From the NCBI GenBank assembly GCA_913020145.1, contig CAJWAI010000008.1, positions 1 to 41,795 of the forward strand: 41,795 nucleotides of DNA. Direction: 5' to 3'. This document shows, piece after piece, positions 2,708 to 36,966 of the stretch. This stretch comes from an uncultured Gammaproteobacteria bacterium (GTDB taxonomy: Bacteria > Pseudomonadota > Gammaproteobacteria > Magnimaribacterales > TMED112). The notes under the pieces are model-generated. The model ran no database searches and was not told where the DNA came from. It was given only the letters and a program-made list of their open reading frames with translations. The position numbers and the translations under genes are program-made. Each line of letters opens with the position of its first letter. Position 1 is the stretch's first letter.

Positions 2708-3796
2708 ATGAAGATTGGCACCCCAAAAGAGATAAAGAATAATGAGAGCAGAGTTGGCTTAACTCCAGAGTCTGTAAAAAAATTATGCTCAAATAACAAT
2801 GAACTCTTTGTTGAAACTGGAGCAGGTGTTGAGATTGGTTTCACTGATGAAGATTACGAAGCAGCAGGCGCAATAGTTTTAGAATCAGCAAAAAAAGTCT
2901 ACGCTGAATCAGAACTTATAATTAAAGTAAAAGAACCATTGCCTGAAGAATTTCAATATTTAACAGATCGACATACTGTTTTTACCTACTTACATTTAGC
3001 AGCAAACAAAGAACAAGCTAAGGAGTTAGTAAAAACAGGAATTACCGGTATTGCGTATGAAACTGTAACTGCCGAGGATGGAAGACTGCCTTTGTTGGCA
3101 CCTATGAGTGCCATAGCAGGGCAAATTGGTTTTGTTGTTGGATCGTATTTTTTATTAAAACCAAATAAAGGTTTAGGGGTTCTATTAGACTCTGTTGGTG
3201 ATATAGCCCCTAGAGTTGTAACAGTTATAGGCGCAGGAGCAGCAGGCACAGAGGCAATTAAAAAGGCTATTGCTACTGGAGCTCATGTAAAAATTATTGA
3301 CTTATCAGAAGAAAAACTTGAACAATTAAAACAAACATTTGGCGAGGATAAAGTCGAGTATATTATTTCGACTCAGGAAACAATATCGGAAGCCCTAGCA
3401 ACTTCTGACCTAGTAATAGGCTCGGTATATGTAATAGGCAAACAAGCTCCCAAAGTGATTACTAAGGACATGATTACTGCAATGAAACCAGGGAGCGTAA
3501 TAGTAGATATTGCTATTGATCAAGGCGGATGTATTGAAACTAGTAGACCGACGACGCATGATGATCCTGTATTTATACATGATGGCGTTATTCATTATTG
3601 TGTGACTAATATGCCAGGAGCTGTGCCTCTTACAGCTACATTAGCTCTTAATAAAGCAACTATGCCTCATATTGAAGCGTTAGCAAGAGAGGGAATAATA
3701 CAAGCTTTAGATTCTGATAAACACCTAGCAAATGGTTTAAATATGAAAAATGGTGAGATAATACATCCAGCCATCAAAGAGGCTTTGGAGGAGTAA
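2708..3796 (+). CDS. ald: Alanine dehydrogenase
   Basis: NAD-dependent alanine dehydrogenase, interconverting L-alanine and pyruvate plus ammonium. Its 362 residues match the family length. The known catalytic residues are present at the expected places: Arg15 (ESRVGLTP), Lys75 (IKVKEPLPEE), His96 (FTYLHLAA) and Asp271 (DIAIDQGG). The nucleotide-binding loop is VIGAGAAGTEA at about 173-183, and the C-terminal NMPGAVPLTATLAL is typical. PntA also belongs to this superfamily, but no beta subunit or membrane domain follows and the IDQGG and NMPGAVP blocks favour Ald. Likely role is alanine catabolism or ammonium assimilation, in keeping with the aminotransferases and Amt in the window. Confidence 0.94.
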   Translation: MKIGTPKEIKNNESRVGLTPESVKKLCSNNNELFVETGAGVEIGFTDEDYEAAGAIVLESAKKVYAESELIIKVKEPLPEEFQYLTDRHTVFTYLHLAANKEQAKELVKTGITGIAYETVTAEDGRLPLLAPMSAIAGQIGFVVGSYFLLKPNKGLGVLLDSVGDIAPRVVTVIGAGAAGTEAIKKAIATGAHVKIIDLSEEKLEQLKQTFGEDKVEYIISTQETISEALATSDLVIGSVYVIGKQAPKVITKDMITAMKPGSVIVDIAIDQGGCIETSRPTTHDDPVFIHDGVIHYCVTNMPGAVPLTATLALNKATMPHIEALAREGIIQALDSDKHLANGLNMKNGEIIHPAIKEALEE

Positions 3797-3803
3797 GATA
3801 GTA

Positions 3804-4031
3804 ATGGAATATCTCGATTCATTATTAGAGTGGGGCATGTGGTCAGCCTTGATCACAATTATTGCCACAGCACTTGTATATCAAGTTTTAAAACATCGTC
3901 TGGAACAAGATGAGATCGGCAAGTATTTTGTGATTGGTTGTCTATATACTGCTATTTTCATCATTCTTATGATTTTTGGTTTGGTTATGGTCGTAGATGA
4001 AGTTGTTTCTACTTCGGGTGATTTTATTTAA
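3804..4031 (+). CDS. Small membrane protein, unknown
   Basis: 75 residues with two hydrophobic helices, at about 13-30 and 43-65, joined by the charged loop KHRLEQDEIGKY. Family not recognised. It starts 7 bases after ald and is first in a run of small membrane genes around the AIM24-family gene (3.8-5.8 kb), all on the plus strand. It may share a transcript with ald. No catalytic motif. Confidence 0.65.
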   Translation: MEYLDSLLEWGMWSALITIIATALVYQVLKHRLEQDEIGKYFVIGCLYTAIFIILMIFGLVMVVDEVVSTSGDFI

Positions 4032-4073
4032 CTTTTATGTCAATATTTAATACTTACTTAGGAGAATACAAAT

Positions 4074-4274
4074 ATGAAAACATTTATTAAATGGTTAATT
4101 AGACTAGCAGCATTAGGAATAATTGGATTCGGCTTATATGAAGCTTTTACCGGATATTCTACAGCAGAGGGTTTACTCGTTGCTGGAGTTGGAGCTGTAG
4201 GCTACTTTCTGGCTGGTCCAGTTGCAGCTGTTTCAGCATTTTTTTTAAACTTTATTGATCTAGGAGATAGCTAA
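4074..4274 (+). CDS. Small glycine-rich membrane protein, unknown
   Basis: 66 residues, nearly all hydrophobic, with two helices (about 7-25 and 33-60) rich in Gly, Ala and Val (LLVAGVGAVGYFLAGPVAAV). A good ribosome site (TTAGGAGAA) lies upstream of the ATG. The stop codon is a single base before the start of the AIM24-family gene, so the two are almost certainly translated from one message. Family not recognised. Confidence 0.65.
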   Translation: MKTFIKWLIRLAALGIIGFGLYEAFTGYSTAEGLLVAGVGAVGYFLAGPVAAVSAFFLNFIDLGDS

Positions 4275-4275
4275 A

Positions 4276-5154
4276 ATGTATAAAAACTATAAATTCGACG
4301 TCATTACTGAAGCATCAGTACCAGGGGCAAAAGTTCAAGTAGTAACTTTTCCATTACTTAGAGGATCTGATGATGTAAACACAGCAGAACACCTCTACTT
4401 TGCTAATGAAGCTGGCATGAAGCTAAAAATGGTCAAAATTGAATTAAAAGATTCATCCTTAAGAGTTGAGCCAGGAGCTTTATATCATATGTGTGGAGAT
4501 CTAGAAATGGTTACTTCTACAGGCGGCGGTGTCTTCAAAGGTCTTGCTAGAAAAATGACATCTGGTGAATCGTTTTTTGTGAACGAGATTAAAGGTACAG
4601 GAACTATATATTTAGAGCCTACCTTTGGGCATTTTTTATTACATGATATTAAAAAGGATGCAAAAGGAGTTATTTGCGATAAGGGCATGTTTTTTGCTGG
4701 AACAAGTGGACTAGATATTGGAGCTGCTATACAAAAAAATATCTCAGCAGGACTATTTGGTGGAGAAGGTCTATTCCAAACAAAAGTTACAGGAGAAGGT
4801 ATAGCTATACTATTTTCTCCAGTCCCAGTTGAAGAGATACAAGAAGTAGAGCTTAAGAATGAAAAACTTTCTGTAGATGGTAATTTTGCTTTGATGAGAA
4901 CAGATGGTGTGAGCTTTAAAGCTGAAAAAAGTAGTAAAAGCTGGTTAGCAACATCAGTATCTGGAGAAGGATTACTTCAAACTTTCCAAGGCGAAGGCAC
5001 AGTATGGATTGCTCCCACACAAGTAGTTTATGAAAGAATGGCATATGGTGATCTTAATGCTTTATCAGGAGCTCCTGGAAGTTCTAATAATAAGGCGACA
5101 GGCAAAAAAGGCAAAAAGAATATGAGGGCTTTAATGGATCTCATAGGCGACTAA
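4276..5154 (+). CDS. AIM24 family protein (TIGR00266/DUF124)
   Basis: 292 residues of the AIM24 beta-sandwich family, whose bacterial members have no settled function; the yeast namesake is a mitochondrial inner-membrane organiser. Typical blocks are visible: GDLEMVTSTGGGVFKGLARKM, then GTGTIYLEP, FFAGTSGLDIG, LFGGEGLFQTKVTGEGIA and a repeat-like SGEGLLQTFQGEGTVWIAPT near the C-terminus. The tail is basic (KKGKKNMRAL). No signal peptide or membrane helix is seen. The close packing with four small membrane-protein genes suggests the product acts at a membrane with them; that is inference. Confidence 0.88.
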   Translation: MYKNYKFDVITEASVPGAKVQVVTFPLLRGSDDVNTAEHLYFANEAGMKLKMVKIELKDSSLRVEPGALYHMCGDLEMVTSTGGGVFKGLARKMTSGESFFVNEIKGTGTIYLEPTFGHFLLHDIKKDAKGVICDKGMFFAGTSGLDIGAAIQKNISAGLFGGEGLFQTKVTGEGIAILFSPVPVEEIQEVELKNEKLSVDGNFALMRTDGVSFKAEKSSKSWLATSVSGEGLLQTFQGEGTVWIAPTQVVYERMAYGDLNALSGAPGSSNNKATGKKGKKNMRALMDLIGD

Positions 5155-5163
5155 CATTTAGAT

Positions 5164-5457
5164 ATGGAAAAACAAGATAAAATTGCATTGATAGCAATCT
5201 TTTGTTTGCTTTGCGCAGCCACATTCGCCTTAATGTATCTAGTAAAGATCGTAGGCGGTTGGTTTTTTGATATAGATGATCTTGGGTATGGGTTTAAAGA
5301 GGCTTTACCTATAGCTGTAATACTTAGTTTTGTAATAATAACTATCTTCGCTTTGTTTGGTGGTGATGGAATTATTTTTGGTGAGATACCATTTATGATT
5401 GCTGGATTTTTTATTTTTGTCCTGTTCTTTACTATCTCTTTAGCATGGCTTTACTGA
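5164..5457 (+). CDS. Membrane protein, unknown
   Basis: 97 residues with three predicted helices (about 6-29, 46-66 and 71-95). The loop WFFDIDDLGYGFKEALP lies between helices 1 and 2. Family not recognised. It begins 9 bases after the AIM24 gene and ends 4 bases before another small membrane gene, so it is probably in the same operon. Confidence 0.65.
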   Translation: MEKQDKIALIAIFCLLCAATFALMYLVKIVGGWFFDIDDLGYGFKEALPIAVILSFVIITIFALFGGDGIIFGEIPFMIAGFFIFVLFFTISLAWLY

Positions 5458-5461
5458 GTTA

Positions 5462-5761
5462 ATGATTTTACGCAAGGTTGGAATAGGCTTTGCCTATTTA
5501 TGCATCTATACAACACCCATACAGGTATTCTTTTTTGTATGGATGCTAATAATGATTTTTCAGACTGAGTATGGAGTTTTTACCTTAAGCACCAAAATAT
5601 TTTTAGTTGAAAAGCTTGAATTTTTGCATGACTGGATCTACTCATGGTTCTGGAATGATTTTCTAGATTTTTGGTACCAATTCCCAGCTTTAATAATGGT
5701 TACACTTAAAGCAATAGTTAATACTTGGCTAGGTTTTTGGCTTCTTAAAAAATTAAAGTAA
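5462..5761 (+). CDS. Small aromatic-rich membrane protein, unknown
   Basis: 99 residues with two or three hydrophobic helices and many aromatic residues (Trp-rich segment WIYSWFWNDFLDFWYQF in the middle). Family not recognised. It is the last of the small membrane genes around AIM24 and stops 6 bases before the aminotransferase start. Existence is supported by tight spacing and full-length membrane character; function unknown. Confidence 0.6.
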   Translation: MILRKVGIGFAYLCIYTTPIQVFFFVWMLIMIFQTEYGVFTLSTKIFLVEKLEFLHDWIYSWFWNDFLDFWYQFPALIMVTLKAIVNTWLGFWLLKKLK

Positions 5762-5767
5762 ACAAAA

Positions 5768-7123
5768 ATGAGCAATAATCTAGCAACTAAAGATATAAAA
5801 AATCTATTTCACCCAGCAACTAACTTAAAAGTTCATGAACATGGGCAGCCCCTAATTTTAGATCGAGGCGATGGTATTTATGTATATGACGTTGAAGGTA
5901 ATAAATACATAGAAGGCCTTGCTGGATTATGGTGCAATGCACTAGGTTTCGGTAATGAAGAATTAGTCGAAGCAGCAGCCAAGCAGATGCAAAAGTATGG
6001 ATATGGTTCTCTGTTTGCGTCTAAGAGCCATGAGCCGGCGATTATGTTATCTGAAAAACTCATGGAAATGTCACCTTTCGATGATGGTAAGGTATTTTTT
6101 GGAAGCTCAGGCGGAGATGCAAATGATACGCAGTATAAGCTTTTCACTTATTTAAATAATGCGTTAGGTAAACCACATAAGAAGAAATTTCTTGGTAGAA
6201 AAAAGGGCTATCATGGCATTACTGTTGCTAGTGGCAGCATGACTGGAATTCCTGCTAATCATAAGCTGTTTGACTTACCAATTTCAGGCTTCTTTCATAC
6301 AGATACACCACACTACTACCGTGAAGGATTAGACAATGAAACGGAAGCAGAATTTTTAGATCGAATCACAGAAAACTTAGAAAATTTGATCATCAAAGAG
6401 GGTGCTGATAATTTCTCAGCCATGATTGCTGAACCATTAATAGGAGCAGGAGGTGTTATCATTCCACCGGAAGGCTATTTCCCTAAAATCCAAAGTGTTT
6501 TGGAAAAATATGATATTCATTTAATAGATGATGAAGTTATATGTGGTTTTGGTAGAACGGGTAATTGTTGGGGGTATGAAACTTTCTCAATAAAACCATC
6601 TTCTATGACTATTGCTAAAGCACTTTCATCGGGCTATATGCCTATCAGCGCTGTAATTGTCTCAGAAGAAATTTTTGAACCTATAAAACATGCAAGTGGA
6701 GATGTAGGTGTTTTTGCACATGGGTATACTTACTCTGGACATCCTGTCTCATGTGCAGTAGCTCTTAAAACACTGGAAATTTATGAAAGAACTAAACTTT
6801 TCTCACATGTTAGTGAGGTGTCTATACACTTCCAAAATAGAGTCGCTAAACTCGCATCTTATGATCATGTAGGAGAAGCTAGAGGTGTAGGTTTGGTTGC
6901 AGGCATTGAGCTTGTAAAAGACAAAGAAACAAAAGAAAATTTCGAGCCTTATGGAAAGATAGGAATGCTTTTAGCAGATGCTTGTCAAAAAAATGGGCTA
7001 ATTGTTCGAGCAATTGGAGATGTTATCGCTATTTGCCCCCCTCTTATCATTACAGAATCACAAATTGATGAATTATTTGATATTCTTGAAACTTCTATAG
7101 AAGAAGTTTTTAAAAAAAATTAA
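5768..7123 (+). CDS. Class III (omega-type) PLP aminotransferase
   Basis: 451 residues of the class III aminotransferase fold, soluble and PLP-dependent. The N-terminus has HPATNLKVHEHGQP and IEGLAGLWCNALGFGNEEL. The cofactor loop is SSGGDANDTQYKL, the PLP ring aspartate lies in LIDDEVICGFGRTG, and the Schiff-base lysine is in TIAKALSSGYMPISAV. The length and the FHPATN/GLWC blocks place it among omega-amino acid or polyamine:pyruvate type enzymes, but the amino donor cannot be fixed. It sits 12 bases before the nitronate monooxygenase-like gene. A role in feeding amino nitrogen or carbonyls into central metabolism is inference. Confidence 0.93.
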   Translation: MSNNLATKDIKNLFHPATNLKVHEHGQPLILDRGDGIYVYDVEGNKYIEGLAGLWCNALGFGNEELVEAAAKQMQKYGYGSLFASKSHEPAIMLSEKLMEMSPFDDGKVFFGSSGGDANDTQYKLFTYLNNALGKPHKKKFLGRKKGYHGITVASGSMTGIPANHKLFDLPISGFFHTDTPHYYREGLDNETEAEFLDRITENLENLIIKEGADNFSAMIAEPLIGAGGVIIPPEGYFPKIQSVLEKYDIHLIDDEVICGFGRTGNCWGYETFSIKPSSMTIAKALSSGYMPISAVIVSEEIFEPIKHASGDVGVFAHGYTYSGHPVSCAVALKTLEIYERTKLFSHVSEVSIHFQNRVAKLASYDHVGEARGVGLVAGIELVKDKETKENFEPYGKIGMLLADACQKNGLIVRAIGDVIAICPPLIITESQIDELFDILETSIEEVFKKN

Positions 7124-33352: not shown

Positions 33353-34378
33353 ATGAAAATAACTGAGCACTCTTTTTCAACTGACAGACATACATCTTTT
33401 TACCTTTCTTGTGGGCCAGAGAATGGCCAGTTAGTAATTATGACTCATGGCTGGCCGGAACTATCATTAAGTTGGCGTCATCAGTTATCTTTTCTTGGAA
33501 ATTTAGGATTCCATGCTGTAGCTCCTGATATGAGAGGTTATGGTAATTCATCGATTTATGATGAGCATACTGCTTACACTCAAGAAGAAGTCATGCAAGA
33601 TATGTTGGAGCTCTTTAATCATTTCAAAAAAGATAAAGCTATTTGGATTGGCCATGATTGGGGATCTGTAGTCGCATGGAATGTAGCAATACATCATCCT
33701 GAGATCGTAAAAGGAGTTGCTAGTCTTTGTGTGCCATTTGGCTGGGGAGGACATCCTGAACGTTACCTTCCTTATGTAGACAGAGATTTATATCCGGAAG
33801 ATGAATTTCCCTATGGACAGTGGGATTACCAATTCTTTCATATGGAAAATTTTGATATAGCTAAGAACGATATGGAAACAGATCCATATAAAATGCTAAA
33901 ACTGATGTTTAGGAAAGCAGATCCTGCATCAAGAGGCCAGATGTCTCCGACGGCCTTGATATCGAAGATGGGGGGCTGGTTCAAAATACTAGGACCAGAT
34001 GGACTTAATTCAATTGGTAATGTCGAACCAGATACAGATGTAGTTACAGAAGAAGAAATCAAAGTTTTTGGTGATCATTTAGTGCAGAATGGTTTCTTTG
34101 GGCCTAACTCTTGGTATGTAAATGGGCATGCAAATGATAAATTTGCGAAAGTCATTGATAGATTTGAAATTCCATTCCCTGCTCTCTTGATTCATGCAGA
34201 ATTAGATGCAGTTTTAGACACAAAAACTTCAAAAATGACAAATTTAACAAGGGCAGTTTGCACCGACTTAACAGAAAAGAGTATTGTGTCTGGACATTGG
34301 ATGGCACAAGAAAAGCCTGATGAAGTAAATCAGGTTATATCTAACTGGATTGATGATAAGATTCTAGTAGGGTCATGA
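33353..34378 (+). CDS. Alpha/beta hydrolase, soluble epoxide hydrolase type
   Basis: 341 residues. The oxyanion motif HGWPELSLSWRHQL is the HGxP form seen in epoxide hydrolases. The nucleophile aspartate is in WIGHDWGSVVAWN, replacing the serine of ordinary esterases. A cap region with tyrosines lies at about 140-260. The acid is probably in LLIHAELDAVLD, and the catalytic His in IVSGHWMAQEKPDEV. It should hydrolyse epoxides to diols; natural substrate unknown. It overlaps the ion channel gene by four bases. Confidence 0.92.
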   Translation: MKITEHSFSTDRHTSFYLSCGPENGQLVIMTHGWPELSLSWRHQLSFLGNLGFHAVAPDMRGYGNSSIYDEHTAYTQEEVMQDMLELFNHFKKDKAIWIGHDWGSVVAWNVAIHHPEIVKGVASLCVPFGWGGHPERYLPYVDRDLYPEDEFPYGQWDYQFFHMENFDIAKNDMETDPYKMLKLMFRKADPASRGQMSPTALISKMGGWFKILGPDGLNSIGNVEPDTDVVTEEEIKVFGDHLVQNGFFGPNSWYVNGHANDKFAKVIDRFEIPFPALLIHAELDAVLDTKTSKMTNLTRAVCTDLTEKSIVSGHWMAQEKPDEVNQVISNWIDDKILVGS

Positions 34379-35100
34379 CAATAACCGAACGATTAGCATT
34401 AATTAAAGATTCATCTATTTTTCAAATAGTTGTAACAATAGTAATTTTACTTTCATCTGTAATTGTAGGAATTGGTACTTATGATTTTACCAATAGCCTT
34501 TTTTTAAAATCATTGGCTGCAATGGATCTGTCTATAACGGTCTTTTTTGTAATTGAGATCCTTATTAGATTTTTTGCAGAAAAAAGAAAAGTAGATTTTT
34601 TTAAAGACGGCTGGAATATATTTGATACCGTAATAGTTGTCTCCTCACTTATTCCAACTGCTGGCACATCCGTAATGGTCTTACGTCTACTCAGATTGGC
34701 AAGATTATTGAGAGTTATCTCTTTTATACCTGAACTTAGATTTGTGATAGAAGCGCTTATAGAATCACTTAAGAAGAGTGTATATGTTCTCATACTGATC
34801 TTTATATTGCTTTATATATATGCAGTAGCAGGGGTTATTCTTTTTGAATCAGTCGAAGGTGGAAGATTTGAAGAGCTAGGAGAGGCCTTACTCGCACTAG
34901 TTCAAATTATGACTCTTTCTTCATGGGAAACTCTTATGCTTCCTATCACTGAAATATATCCTTATGGATGGATATATTTTGTTAGCTTTGTAGTTTTTTC
35001 TTCAATAATAGTTCTCAATCTTTTCGTGGCTATTCTTGTAGATGTTGTTGCTGAGAGAAGAAAGCGACTCCAAGGAGATCCAGCTGGAAAATCGACTTAA
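34375..35100 (+). CDS. Voltage-gated-like ion channel with unusual selectivity filter
   Basis: 241 residues, one six-helix subunit of the BacNav-like ion transport family, presumably tetrameric. S1 lies at about 15-35. The S4 voltage sensor has Arg104, Arg107, Arg110 and Arg113 at every third place (LRLLRLARLLRV). S5 is about 134-158. The filter after the pore helix reads TLSSWET (180-186), where sodium channels of this family have TLESWS: the glutamate is replaced by Ser182 and an acidic residue appears at Glu185. S6 ends in LNLFVAILVDVV. Starts four bases inside the epoxide hydrolase gene. Confidence 0.88.
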   Translation: MTITERLALIKDSSIFQIVVTIVILLSSVIVGIGTYDFTNSLFLKSLAAMDLSITVFFVIEILIRFFAEKRKVDFFKDGWNIFDTVIVVSSLIPTAGTSVMVLRLLRLARLLRVISFIPELRFVIEALIESLKKSVYVLILIFILLYIYAVAGVILFESVEGGRFEELGEALLALVQIMTLSSWETLMLPITEIYPYGWIYFVSFVVFSSIIVLNLFVAILVDVVAERRKRLQGDPAGKST

Positions 35101-35667: not shown

Positions 35668-35743
35668 TGGTGCCCAGAGGTGGAATCGAACCACCGACAC
35701 AAGGATTTTCAGTCCTTTGCTCTACCAACTGAGCTATCTGGGC
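35668..35743 (-). tRNA. tRNA-Phe (anticodon GAA)
   Basis: 76 bases including an encoded CCA. The acceptor stem pairs GCCCAGA with TCTGGGC. The D arm is GCTC-AGTTGGTA-GAGC. The anticodon arm is AAGGA-CTGAAAA-TCCTT with GAA at positions 34-36, and the T arm is GGTGG-TTCGATT-CCACC. No intron or mismatch. No duplicated 3' end or integrase was seen nearby, so it is not visibly used as an integration site. Confidence 0.98.
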
Positions 35744-35777: not shown

Positions 35778-36965
35778 TAAAAAAAAGATGTTAGAGATAA
35801 AACGTTCAATATTAAGTGCAGTAGGCATAGCACTAATTGCTGGTATATTTCTAGCTGGGTATATATTTGATTTTTTTTTCACAGATGATTTTTCGATGAT
35901 AGGTGAATTTAATGAGGAGCTCGGCCCACTATTTGGACCTTTACTTTATTGGGCATTTTTTTTGGCAATATTAGGGTCTTTATTTGTTTTTGTAAAATTA
36001 TTAATTTCTAATGACCCAGTTATTACTATGGATACTAATGAAATCAAATTTCATGCGCCTATTAAAATGAATGACTTAACAATGCAGTGGAAAGAAATTG
36101 AAAGTATTCAATTAGGACATCAAAGAGTGGCATTACAAAAATTTGTCTTTTTGGTAATAACTCCCACCGATCAAGACAAAGCAAAAAAATATAATGAAGT
36201 TAATCTCAAAGCAGCTAAATTTATGCCGCTTGGATTGCCATATGATTTGAAAAAAAGAATTGGTATCCCTATTAACGGTTTAAAATTGAAGCCCAAAGAA
36301 ATTCTTGTGCAAGCAAAAAAATTTCTAGCTGAAAATAGTTAGGAAAAAACAGTAAATAAAACAATGTCAGCGGGTACTAAAAAAAAGATGTTAGAGATAA
36401 AACGATCAAAATTCAGCGAAATATGGTTGATACCTTTTGCTGGTGTATTTGTAGCTGCGTATATATTTGATTTTTTGAACGCTGATCTTTCGCTAGCAAC
36501 AAGTATGAATAACGATTGGGGCGCACCATGGGGAACTTTAGGTTATTGGGGGCTTTTTTTAGTAATGTTAAGTGCTCTCTCTTTAAGTGTAAAAAGATTA
36601 TTTTCTAATGACCCAGTTATTACTATGGATACTAATGAAATCAAATTTTATGTACCTACCAAAGATAGTATTTTTAGATCTTATAAATTGAAAGTTGATT
36701 TAACACTGCAATGGAAAGAAATTGAAAAAATTCAACTAGGCTACGCATCAGATCATTTCGAAGGGGGGAAAACTGAACATCTAGTAATAACGCCTTTTAA
36801 TGAAGAGGTAGCAAAAAAATATAATGAAATAGAAGACCATAAAGATGTATGGCCTGGAGTTTCTTGGAAAATCACAAAAAGAATTGGCATTGAAATTAAA
36901 GGGCTAGAATTGAAGCCCAAAGAAATTCTTGTGCAAGCAAAAAAATTTCTAGCTGAAAATAGTTA
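35778..36965 (+). repeat. Direct repeat blocks inside the tandem paralogues
   Basis: Three pairs of identical DNA blocks: 27 bases at 35778-35804 and 36378-36404; 47 bases at 36005-36051 and 36602-36648; 58 bases at 36284-36341 and 36908-36965. DNA between them has diverged much more, including at replacement sites. Patchy identity of this sort suggests gene conversion or strong local constraint after tandem duplication of about 600 bases. Confidence 0.85.
35788..36342 (+). CDS. Two-helix membrane protein, paralogue 1 of a tandem pair
   Basis: 184 residues. A short head (MLEIKRSIL) precedes a hydrophobic helix (about 10-30); a second helix lies at about 46-70. A C-terminal cytoplasmic-type domain follows: SNDPVITMDTNEIKFHAP, then MQWKEIESIQLG, LVITPTDQDKAKKY and KRIGIPINGLKLKPKEIL. 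The WKEI and VITP layout recalls PH-like domains of STM3941-type membrane proteins, a weak resemblance. The next gene is a clear paralogue. Confidence 0.75.
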   Translation: MLEIKRSILSAVGIALIAGIFLAGYIFDFFFTDDFSMIGEFNEELGPLFGPLLYWAFFLAILGSLFVFVKLLISNDPVITMDTNEIKFHAPIKMNDLTMQWKEIESIQLGHQRVALQKFVFLVITPTDQDKAKKYNEVNLKAAKFMPLGLPYDLKKRIGIPINGLKLKPKEILVQAKKFLAENS

Positions 36966-36966
36966 A
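36388..36966 (+). CDS. Two-helix membrane protein, paralogue 2 of a tandem pair
   Basis: Same layout as the previous gene: two helices, then SNDPVITMDTNEIKFYVP, LQWKEIEKIQLG, VITPFNEEVAKKY and KRIGIEIKGLELKPKEILVQ. The frame opens at an ATG at 36364, but the start at 36388 is chosen because it and the ~10 bases before it are identical to those of paralogue 1; this gives 192 residues. It carries an insertion (KDSIFRSYKLKVD) before LTLQW. The 3' ends of the two genes are identical for 58 bases. Function unknown. Confidence 0.75.
   Translation: MLEIKRSKFSEIWLIPFAGVFVAAYIFDFLNADLSLATSMNNDWGAPWGTLGYWGLFLVMLSALSLSVKRLFSNDPVITMDTNEIKFYVPTKDSIFRSYKLKVDLTLQWKEIEKIQLGYASDHFEGGKTEHLVITPFNEEVAKKYNEIEDHKDVWPGVSWKITKRIGIEIKGLELKPKEILVQAKKFLAENS

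Follow-up and report, generated by a model that had tools for sequence, protein, structure and literature searches.

The window analysed here is a stretch of 41,795 nucleotides, contig C8 of a 934-kb draft genome in 55 contigs from an uncultured gammaproteobacterium. The element in question is a four-gene cassette (3804-5457, S1-S2-AIM24-S3), which consists of an AIM24-family gene and three genes for small hydrophobic proteins and lies between the alanine dehydrogenase gene ald and a further small gene, S4. The recurrent core of this cassette is the pair formed by the AIM24 gene and S3. The open reading frames (ORFs) concerned, with protein lengths in amino acids (aa), are the following:

2708-3796, + strand: ald, alanine dehydrogenase (TIGR00518, 440.8 bits against a cut-off of 391.85), resident gene upstream of the cassette
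3804-4031, + strand: S1, 75 aa, two hydrophobic segments (from the ORF and its hydropathy), cassette gene known from here only
4074-4274, + strand: S2, 66 aa, glycine-rich, two hydrophobic segments, cassette gene known from here only
4276-5154, + strand: AIM24-family protein of 292 aa (PF01987, E 8.3e-46), first half of the recurrent pair
5164-5457, + strand: S3, 97-aa membrane protein with three hydrophobic segments and the signature FA..G(D/E)GxxGE, second half of the recurrent pair
5462-5761, + strand: S4, 99 aa, two hydrophobic segments, native to the ald locus and outside the cassette
5768-7123, + strand: class-III aminotransferase (PF00202, 281.3 bits), next gene downstream

A sequence-only reading of this DNA had described an AIM24 gene surrounded by four small genes for proteins with two or three helices, and had taken their tight packing to suggest a membrane complex. 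The five ORFs were confirmed at these positions, all on the + strand, with gaps of 42, 1, 9 and 4 bp (S1-S2, S2-AIM24, AIM24-S3 and S3-S4, respectively), and hydropathy gave 2, 2, 3 and 2 hydrophobic segments for S1 to S4 and none for AIM24. None of the four small proteins scored above a curated Pfam or NCBIfam cut-off. The close packing says little by itself, since unrelated neighbouring genes on the same strand are equally close: in ORF coordinates, the genes leading up to ald are separated by 9, 10, 9 and 2 bp, ald and S1 by 7 bp, and those following S4 by 6, 12, 33 and 3 bp. Between 2600 and 7300, promoter-like and terminator-like sites were not commoner than in shuffled sequences, and the only RNA feature found at gathering thresholds was a tRNA at 35671-35743.

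The 292-aa protein is AIM24, as the sequence-only reading had named it. PF01987 matches its residues 49-247 over profile positions 7-204 of 205, with 156.7 bits against a cut-off of 25.7. The predicted structure has a mean predicted local distance difference test score (pLDDT) of 81.1, and its top seven PDB matches are all 1pg6 or 1yox, with E values of 1.3e-8 or better and a root-mean-square deviation of 4.5-5.5. Foldseek comparison of the model with these two entries gave an E value of 1.2e-10 and TM-scores of 0.44-0.50 by query and 0.62-0.65 by target, and a sequence search also returns both of them as the PDB matches. Domain and fold are thus common to the window protein and the AIM24 family, as represented by PA3696 (1yox) and SpyM3_0169 (1pg6). 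What sets the window protein apart is its TIGR00266 score, which at 87.3 bits lies below the NCBIfam cut-off of 96.6, and a small membrane protein adjoining in four cases, one of which, from an Ectothiorhodospiraceae metagenome-assembled genome (MAG; locus L006), has an AIM24 that is likewise under this cut-off (76.9 bits).

The cassette was compared with a set of 61 genomes, namely the window's own genome and 60 relatives. Both outcomes that the sequence-only reading had set as refuting it, no neighbourhood conserved in relatives and AIM24 mostly apart from the small genes, were to a large extent what was found: the window AIM24 was matched at E 0.001 in its own genome only, 60 of the 61 being without a match beyond or besides it, and S3 at E 0.01 was also restricted to its own genome (1/61). 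In the 60 relatives there was no convincing match to S1 or S2, the best other E values (0.05 and 0.087, respectively) each falling within a longer reading frame. For the upstream gene ald, in turn, 58 of the 61 genomes gave a match, if weak ones to related dehydrogenases are included, with identities of 89% and 83% in the two best-matching genomes, G010 and G019. In these two close relatives the junction is closed, with ald and S4 adjoining by a 4-bp overlap. S4 copies are present near ald in five relatives (92, 75, 66, 61 and 60% identical), and because S4 adjoins ald in relatives without AIM24, it is a resident of the locus and no part of the cassette. The downstream aminotransferase is 91% identical in G010, where it lies about 6 kb from S4.

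Six relatives taken around ald (G001, G008, G009, G010, G019 and G020) were used for the comparison of the junction. In G001 it contains one gene with a match to Ceramidase PF05875, in G020 a 95-aa hydrophobic protein, and in G008 a similar 94-aa protein together with an FA_hydroxylase (PF04116) gene; no S4 match was present in the G009 stretch around ald. The occupants of the junction (3797-5461 in the window) therefore vary from none through a ceramidase-family gene, a 94/95-aa protein or a fatty-acid-hydroxylase-family gene to the AIM24 cassette. Neither the 94/95-aa protein nor S4 gave a significant score as a relative of S3. Thus, S1-S2-AIM24-S3 occupies the ald-S4 junction in the window genome alone among the 61 searched, and its patchy distribution indicates that the cassette was probably acquired horizontally. 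The junction looks like a site of membrane-related gene exchange, and the two lipid-enzyme families among its occupants are a mild hint at membrane functions.

In addition, a total of 179 loci were compared, the window's own and those of ald-locus relatives among them; those obtained from genome searches carry about 1.5 kb of flank, so that absence of S3 refers there to the immediate neighbourhood only. The window S3 alone retrieved all seven other S3 proteins from these loci, with E values from 3e-10 to 1e-6. Three of them directly follow an AIM24 gene: at L006 the S3 homologue lies 9 bp downstream, the same gap as in the window; at L156 (genome G1130, of the order sampled around Defluviimonas) 25 bp downstream; and on the Antarctobacter heliothermus plasmid NZ_CP022543.1, where the AIM24 gene crosses the record origin, an annotated 114-aa hypothetical protein begins 11 bp after the AIM24 stop. 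The outer neighbours of these three pairs are Proton_antipo_M genes, a trimethylamine methyltransferase gene and a toxin-antitoxin pair, so that the same gene order and a spacing of 9-25 bp recur in four backgrounds with differing surroundings. At L006 (4165-7896), two Proton_antipo_M genes of the NADH:quinone oxidoreductase/Mrp antiporter type precede the pair. The MAG of L006 belongs to the class of the window genome, as searches of the two classes gave matches on identical contigs at almost identical coordinates (for example G319:C10 and G600:C10). No counterparts of S1 or S2 were found at the three loci; the gene table of the plasmid is incomplete, and both were also sought there by sequence in two plasmid stretches. 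Across the 179 loci, S1 and S2 matched only the window's own copies, S4 matched the window and the five ald-locus relatives only, and the S3 profile revealed no further AIM24 gene with S3. A weak profile match near a TIGR00266-type AIM24 gene (L093, E 0.18) was lost with the eight-row profile at E 1. In plasmid records, no S3 was found with the window protein or with that of L166, while the Antarctobacter S3 gave one match, its own source record, which is not independent. The recurrent core of the cassette is the AIM24-S3 pair.

S3 is also found beside genes of another family. A profile built from the four AIM24-linked S3 proteins (A3) matched 1 of 327 genomes in the class around Defluviimonas and 4 of 248 in the window's class, the window's own included. 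Each of the four foreign matches (E 2e-15 to 9e-8) immediately follows a gene coding for a bPH_2 domain (58-65 bits against a cut-off of 22), with a spacing that ranges, for the S3 starts chosen, from a 4-bp overlap to 8 bp. The bPH_2 products are 125-126 aa long in three genomes, and at L164 the ORF has 167 aa from its first start, of which the last 120 were used. Hydropathy shows a single long hydrophobic segment ahead of the PH domain in each of the four; this segment may be either one helix or a hairpin. Three of these genomes (G186, G281 and G305, of the window's class) are outside the 39 AIM24-positive ones among 274. Since they were found by profile alone, these four S3 proteins, all bPH_2-linked, form a fairer sample than the four AIM24-linked ones.

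The eight S3 proteins have in common the pattern GxG...A...FA..G(D/E)GxxGE, in which nine residues are strictly invariant (A22, G41, G43, A63, G67, G69, G73, E74 and A94 in window numbering). All eight carry 2-6 Lys and Arg residues before segment 1 and none in the GDGxxGE loop. The positive-inside rule relates Lys and Arg to the cytoplasmic side, and applied to these sequences it suggests that the N-terminus and the GDGxxGE loop of S3 face the cytoplasm.

A tree of the AIM24 family was made from 40 rows out of a collection of 109. Rows from Paenibacillus, of the TIGR00266 type and of short archaeal proteins were mostly left out, as were many cyanobacterial ones and some duplicates; neither the short L062 nor L139, which is cut and partly masked, formed a row. 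All four S3-linked AIM24 proteins fall in one clade of 13 rows (support 100/99), which also holds Chloroflexota, a Clostridia MAG, Poseidoniales or related archaea, Defluviimonas and a Rhizobiaceae-group MAG. Within the window's class, 39 of 274 genomes have PF01987. Of 193 archaeal genomes around L009, 19 match the window AIM24 with an E value of 1e-30 or better, as do 2 of 244 genomes around Defluviimonas. In viral contigs, neither a scan with the single AIM24 protein nor one with an S3 alignment (A1) gave a match, and a scan with the AIM24 alignment gave two AIM24 genes, both without S3. Phage records contained one distant AIM24 match (E 6e-6) and none to the Antarctobacter S3. On these scans, phage carriage was rejected. 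The two viral genes were found on IMG/VR contigs: L178 has a full AIM24 gene at 3498-4328 (PF01987, 152.3 bits), with a helicase-like ORF (named by eye) about 2 kb off; on L179, an AIM24 relative at 4986-5813 lies beside an SmpB-like ORF and about 1.7 kb from an integrase-like one (names again by eye), and this stretch is perhaps the edge of a provirus.

Taken together, we propose that the cassette has a two-protein core, AIM24 and S3, which forms a scaffold in the inner membrane, and that S3 is a reusable adapter; we give this reading a probability of about 0.5. AIM24, a beta-sandwich without predicted membrane helix, would lie on the cytoplasmic face of the inner membrane, and S3 would be its membrane subunit, with the conserved acidic GDGxxGE loop probably turned toward the cytoplasm. 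From the pairing we infer a physical interaction between the two, which may assemble into an oligomeric scaffold that stabilises nearby proteins or lipids. Elsewhere, the partner of S3 relatives would be a small YdbS-like bPH_2 protein and not AIM24, and S3 appears to be a small membrane subunit whose membrane-facing beta-domain partner can be exchanged. S1 and S2 would be local extras and S4 a bystander. What the data themselves establish is the gene content, the homology of the S3 proteins, their pairing with AIM24 and with bPH_2 genes, and the junction in its filled and its closed state. The scaffold role, likened to that of yeast Aim24, is rated at about one in two, mainly because the two genes may be linked with no interaction between their products. 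The wider proposal, in which S3 is an undescribed adapter family docking either AIM24 or a YdbS-like PH protein and AIM24-S3 is the bacterial counterpart of the mitochondrial Aim24 scaffold, spread by gene transfer, is put forward only tentatively, and we consider it rather unlikely.

Several observations weigh against the scaffold proposal. The topology of S3 is uncertain, because a fourth marginal segment appears in two of the eight proteins (L156 and the Antarctobacter protein) and acidic residues before segment 1 are as many as basic ones; its predicted model is also poor, with a pLDDT of 61.3 from two sequences, and unfit for a fold search. The AIM24-linked S3 cases were all found via AIM24, so that their count is biased. 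Within the 13-row clade only four rows have S3 adjoining AIM24, and two Pseudomonadota of the clade, L003 (covered for only about 570 bp after AIM24) and Defluviimonas (L008), have no S3 beside it. On the tree, the S3 label needs at least three changes, a value as low in 41 of 500 shuffles; the clustering is therefore weak, and repeated gain, loss or transfer is likely. As for horizontal acquisition, the cassette has a GC content of 0.34-0.37 with no step in base composition against its flanks, and a search for a mobile-element boundary found only short imperfect repeats and no mobile genes around it; such a boundary was rejected on the repeats and the base composition. In yeast, Aim24 did not co-isolate with Mic10 in digitonin (PMC3975624), and in the portions of the literature covered no function was found to be shown for a bacterial AIM24.

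Other explanations were weighed against the same data. One dedicated membrane complex of S1, S2, AIM24, S3 and S4, which the sequence-only reading had favoured, would fit their common strand, the gaps of 1-42 bp and the hydrophobic segments in all four small proteins, and one part of it stands, as AIM24 is accompanied by S3 in three other genomes. The remainder fails: gaps are as tight between unrelated genes of the window, S1 and S2 lack counterparts in the other loci, the three further AIM24-S3 pairs included, and S4 lies beside ald in relatives lacking AIM24, for which reason this complex was rejected. We regard it as very improbable; the data do not support a five-protein complex, and the four small membrane genes grouped around AIM24 are of mixed origin, S3 being a recurrent neighbour and S4 part of the older ald locus. 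Of the four small families, only S3 was seen beside AIM24 outside the window's own locus over the 179 loci. An assembly chimera or a contamination of the draft genome could be suspected in a genome of 55 contigs whose cassette appears in no relative searched, but orthology with the relatives reaches the end of ald on one side and the first codons of S4 on the other, the GC content matches that of the flanks, and a chimera is unlikely to be joined precisely between reading frames on both sides, which makes this explanation extremely improbable.

An island for defence or stress resistance, directed for instance against phage or membrane-active peptides and carried at a variable locus, would account for the patchy distribution, and it could draw on the AIM24 relatives of the two IMG/VR contigs with their helicase-like and integrase-like ORFs, on the action of YdbS/YdbT-like bPH_2 proteins in leaderless-bacteriocin transport (described in an excerpt of PMC8657885) and on a weak PADLOC match of S1 to PycTM (E 0.001, 17.4 bits). 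A 17-bit match of a 75-aa hydrophobic protein, however, easily arises by chance; PADLOC matched none of S2, AIM24, S3 and S4 at E 0.5, Pfam and NCBIfam assigned no cassette protein to an enzyme family, and in two relatives the ald-S4 junction holds genes of lipid-enzyme families. PADLOC and PHROGs together gave only weak matches; S1 showed no strong match to the Pycsar effector PycTM, and no cyclase was present among the neighbours scanned with Pfam and NCBIfam. We consider a defence role quite unlikely. AIM24 and S3 might also have been merely co-transferred, S3 being an independent small membrane protein that makes no contact with AIM24. Most AIM24 loci are indeed without S3, the four foreign S3-profile matches (4/4) have no adjoining AIM24, and an annotated IS6-family transposase about 1.4 kb upstream of the AIM24 start on NZ_CP022543.1 means that the linkage there could reflect shared transfer. 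Against this stand the recurrence of order and spacing in the four backgrounds and the position of all eight S3 genes directly downstream of an AIM24 or a bPH_2 gene, and therefore a functional link is favoured and mere co-transfer appears unlikely.

For the proposed scaffold, the closest known system is that of yeast. Excerpts of PMC3975624 describe yeast Aim24 as tightly membrane-bound without a predicted helix, as needed for MICOS integrity and respiratory growth, and as co-isolating with the small membrane protein Mic10 after lysis in Triton X-100; the likeness lies in the link between AIM24 and a small protein of the membrane. Searched at E 1, Pfam and NCBIfam related none of S1-S4 to Mic10 or another MICOS subunit. 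Mic10 has two helices, S3 three hydrophobic segments. The bPH_2-linked S3 loci resemble the YdbS/YdbT type, known as Bacillus subtilis YdbST and enterocin DdE/DdF. According to the excerpted text of PMC8657885, YdbS is a protein of 159 aa that combines two helices with a single PH domain, and DdE and DdF are both required for bacteriocin transport. The S3 relatives of four genomes similarly follow a gene for a bPH_2 protein of about 120-126 aa, in which a hydrophobic stretch precedes the PH domain; they differ in that the partner is S3 instead of the long YdbT with three PH domains, and in that hydropathy shows only one long hydrophobic segment in the four bPH_2 proteins. The cassette proteins themselves gave no Pfam match to bPH_2, a domain present at the four other S3 loci. 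A third comparison is offered by those Ter (tellurite) stress loci that contain a TIGR00266/AIM24 gene (PMC5822837); here the likeness is an AIM24-domain gene within a bacterial gene cluster. No TerD-family gene was found among the window proteins scanned, which included the cassette neighbours and part of the window's ORFs.

The AIM24 domain occurs in all three domains of life (excerpt of PMC6162560), and the family is listed among uncharacterised archaeal proteins (excerpt of PMC6393860). Among the matches listed from titles and abstract openings in the open literature, outside which most subscription papers lie, no such partner of a bacterial AIM24 was described. The recurrent small membrane neighbour, together with the bPH_2 link, supplies a concrete two-gene unit and a testable partner for bacterial AIM24. 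For compact genomes there is also a lesson: of the four suspected AIM24 partners, one proved to be an old resident and two had no convincing relatives.

Two further features of the window lie far from the cassette. The adjacent and similar ORFs at 35788-36342 and 36364-36966 score 42.2 bits (cut-off 40) and 22.7 bits (below the cut-off) for the STM3941 family and look like a tandem duplication, and a 241-aa protein of the ion-channel type is encoded at 34375-35100 (Ion_trans PF00520, 154.9 bits).

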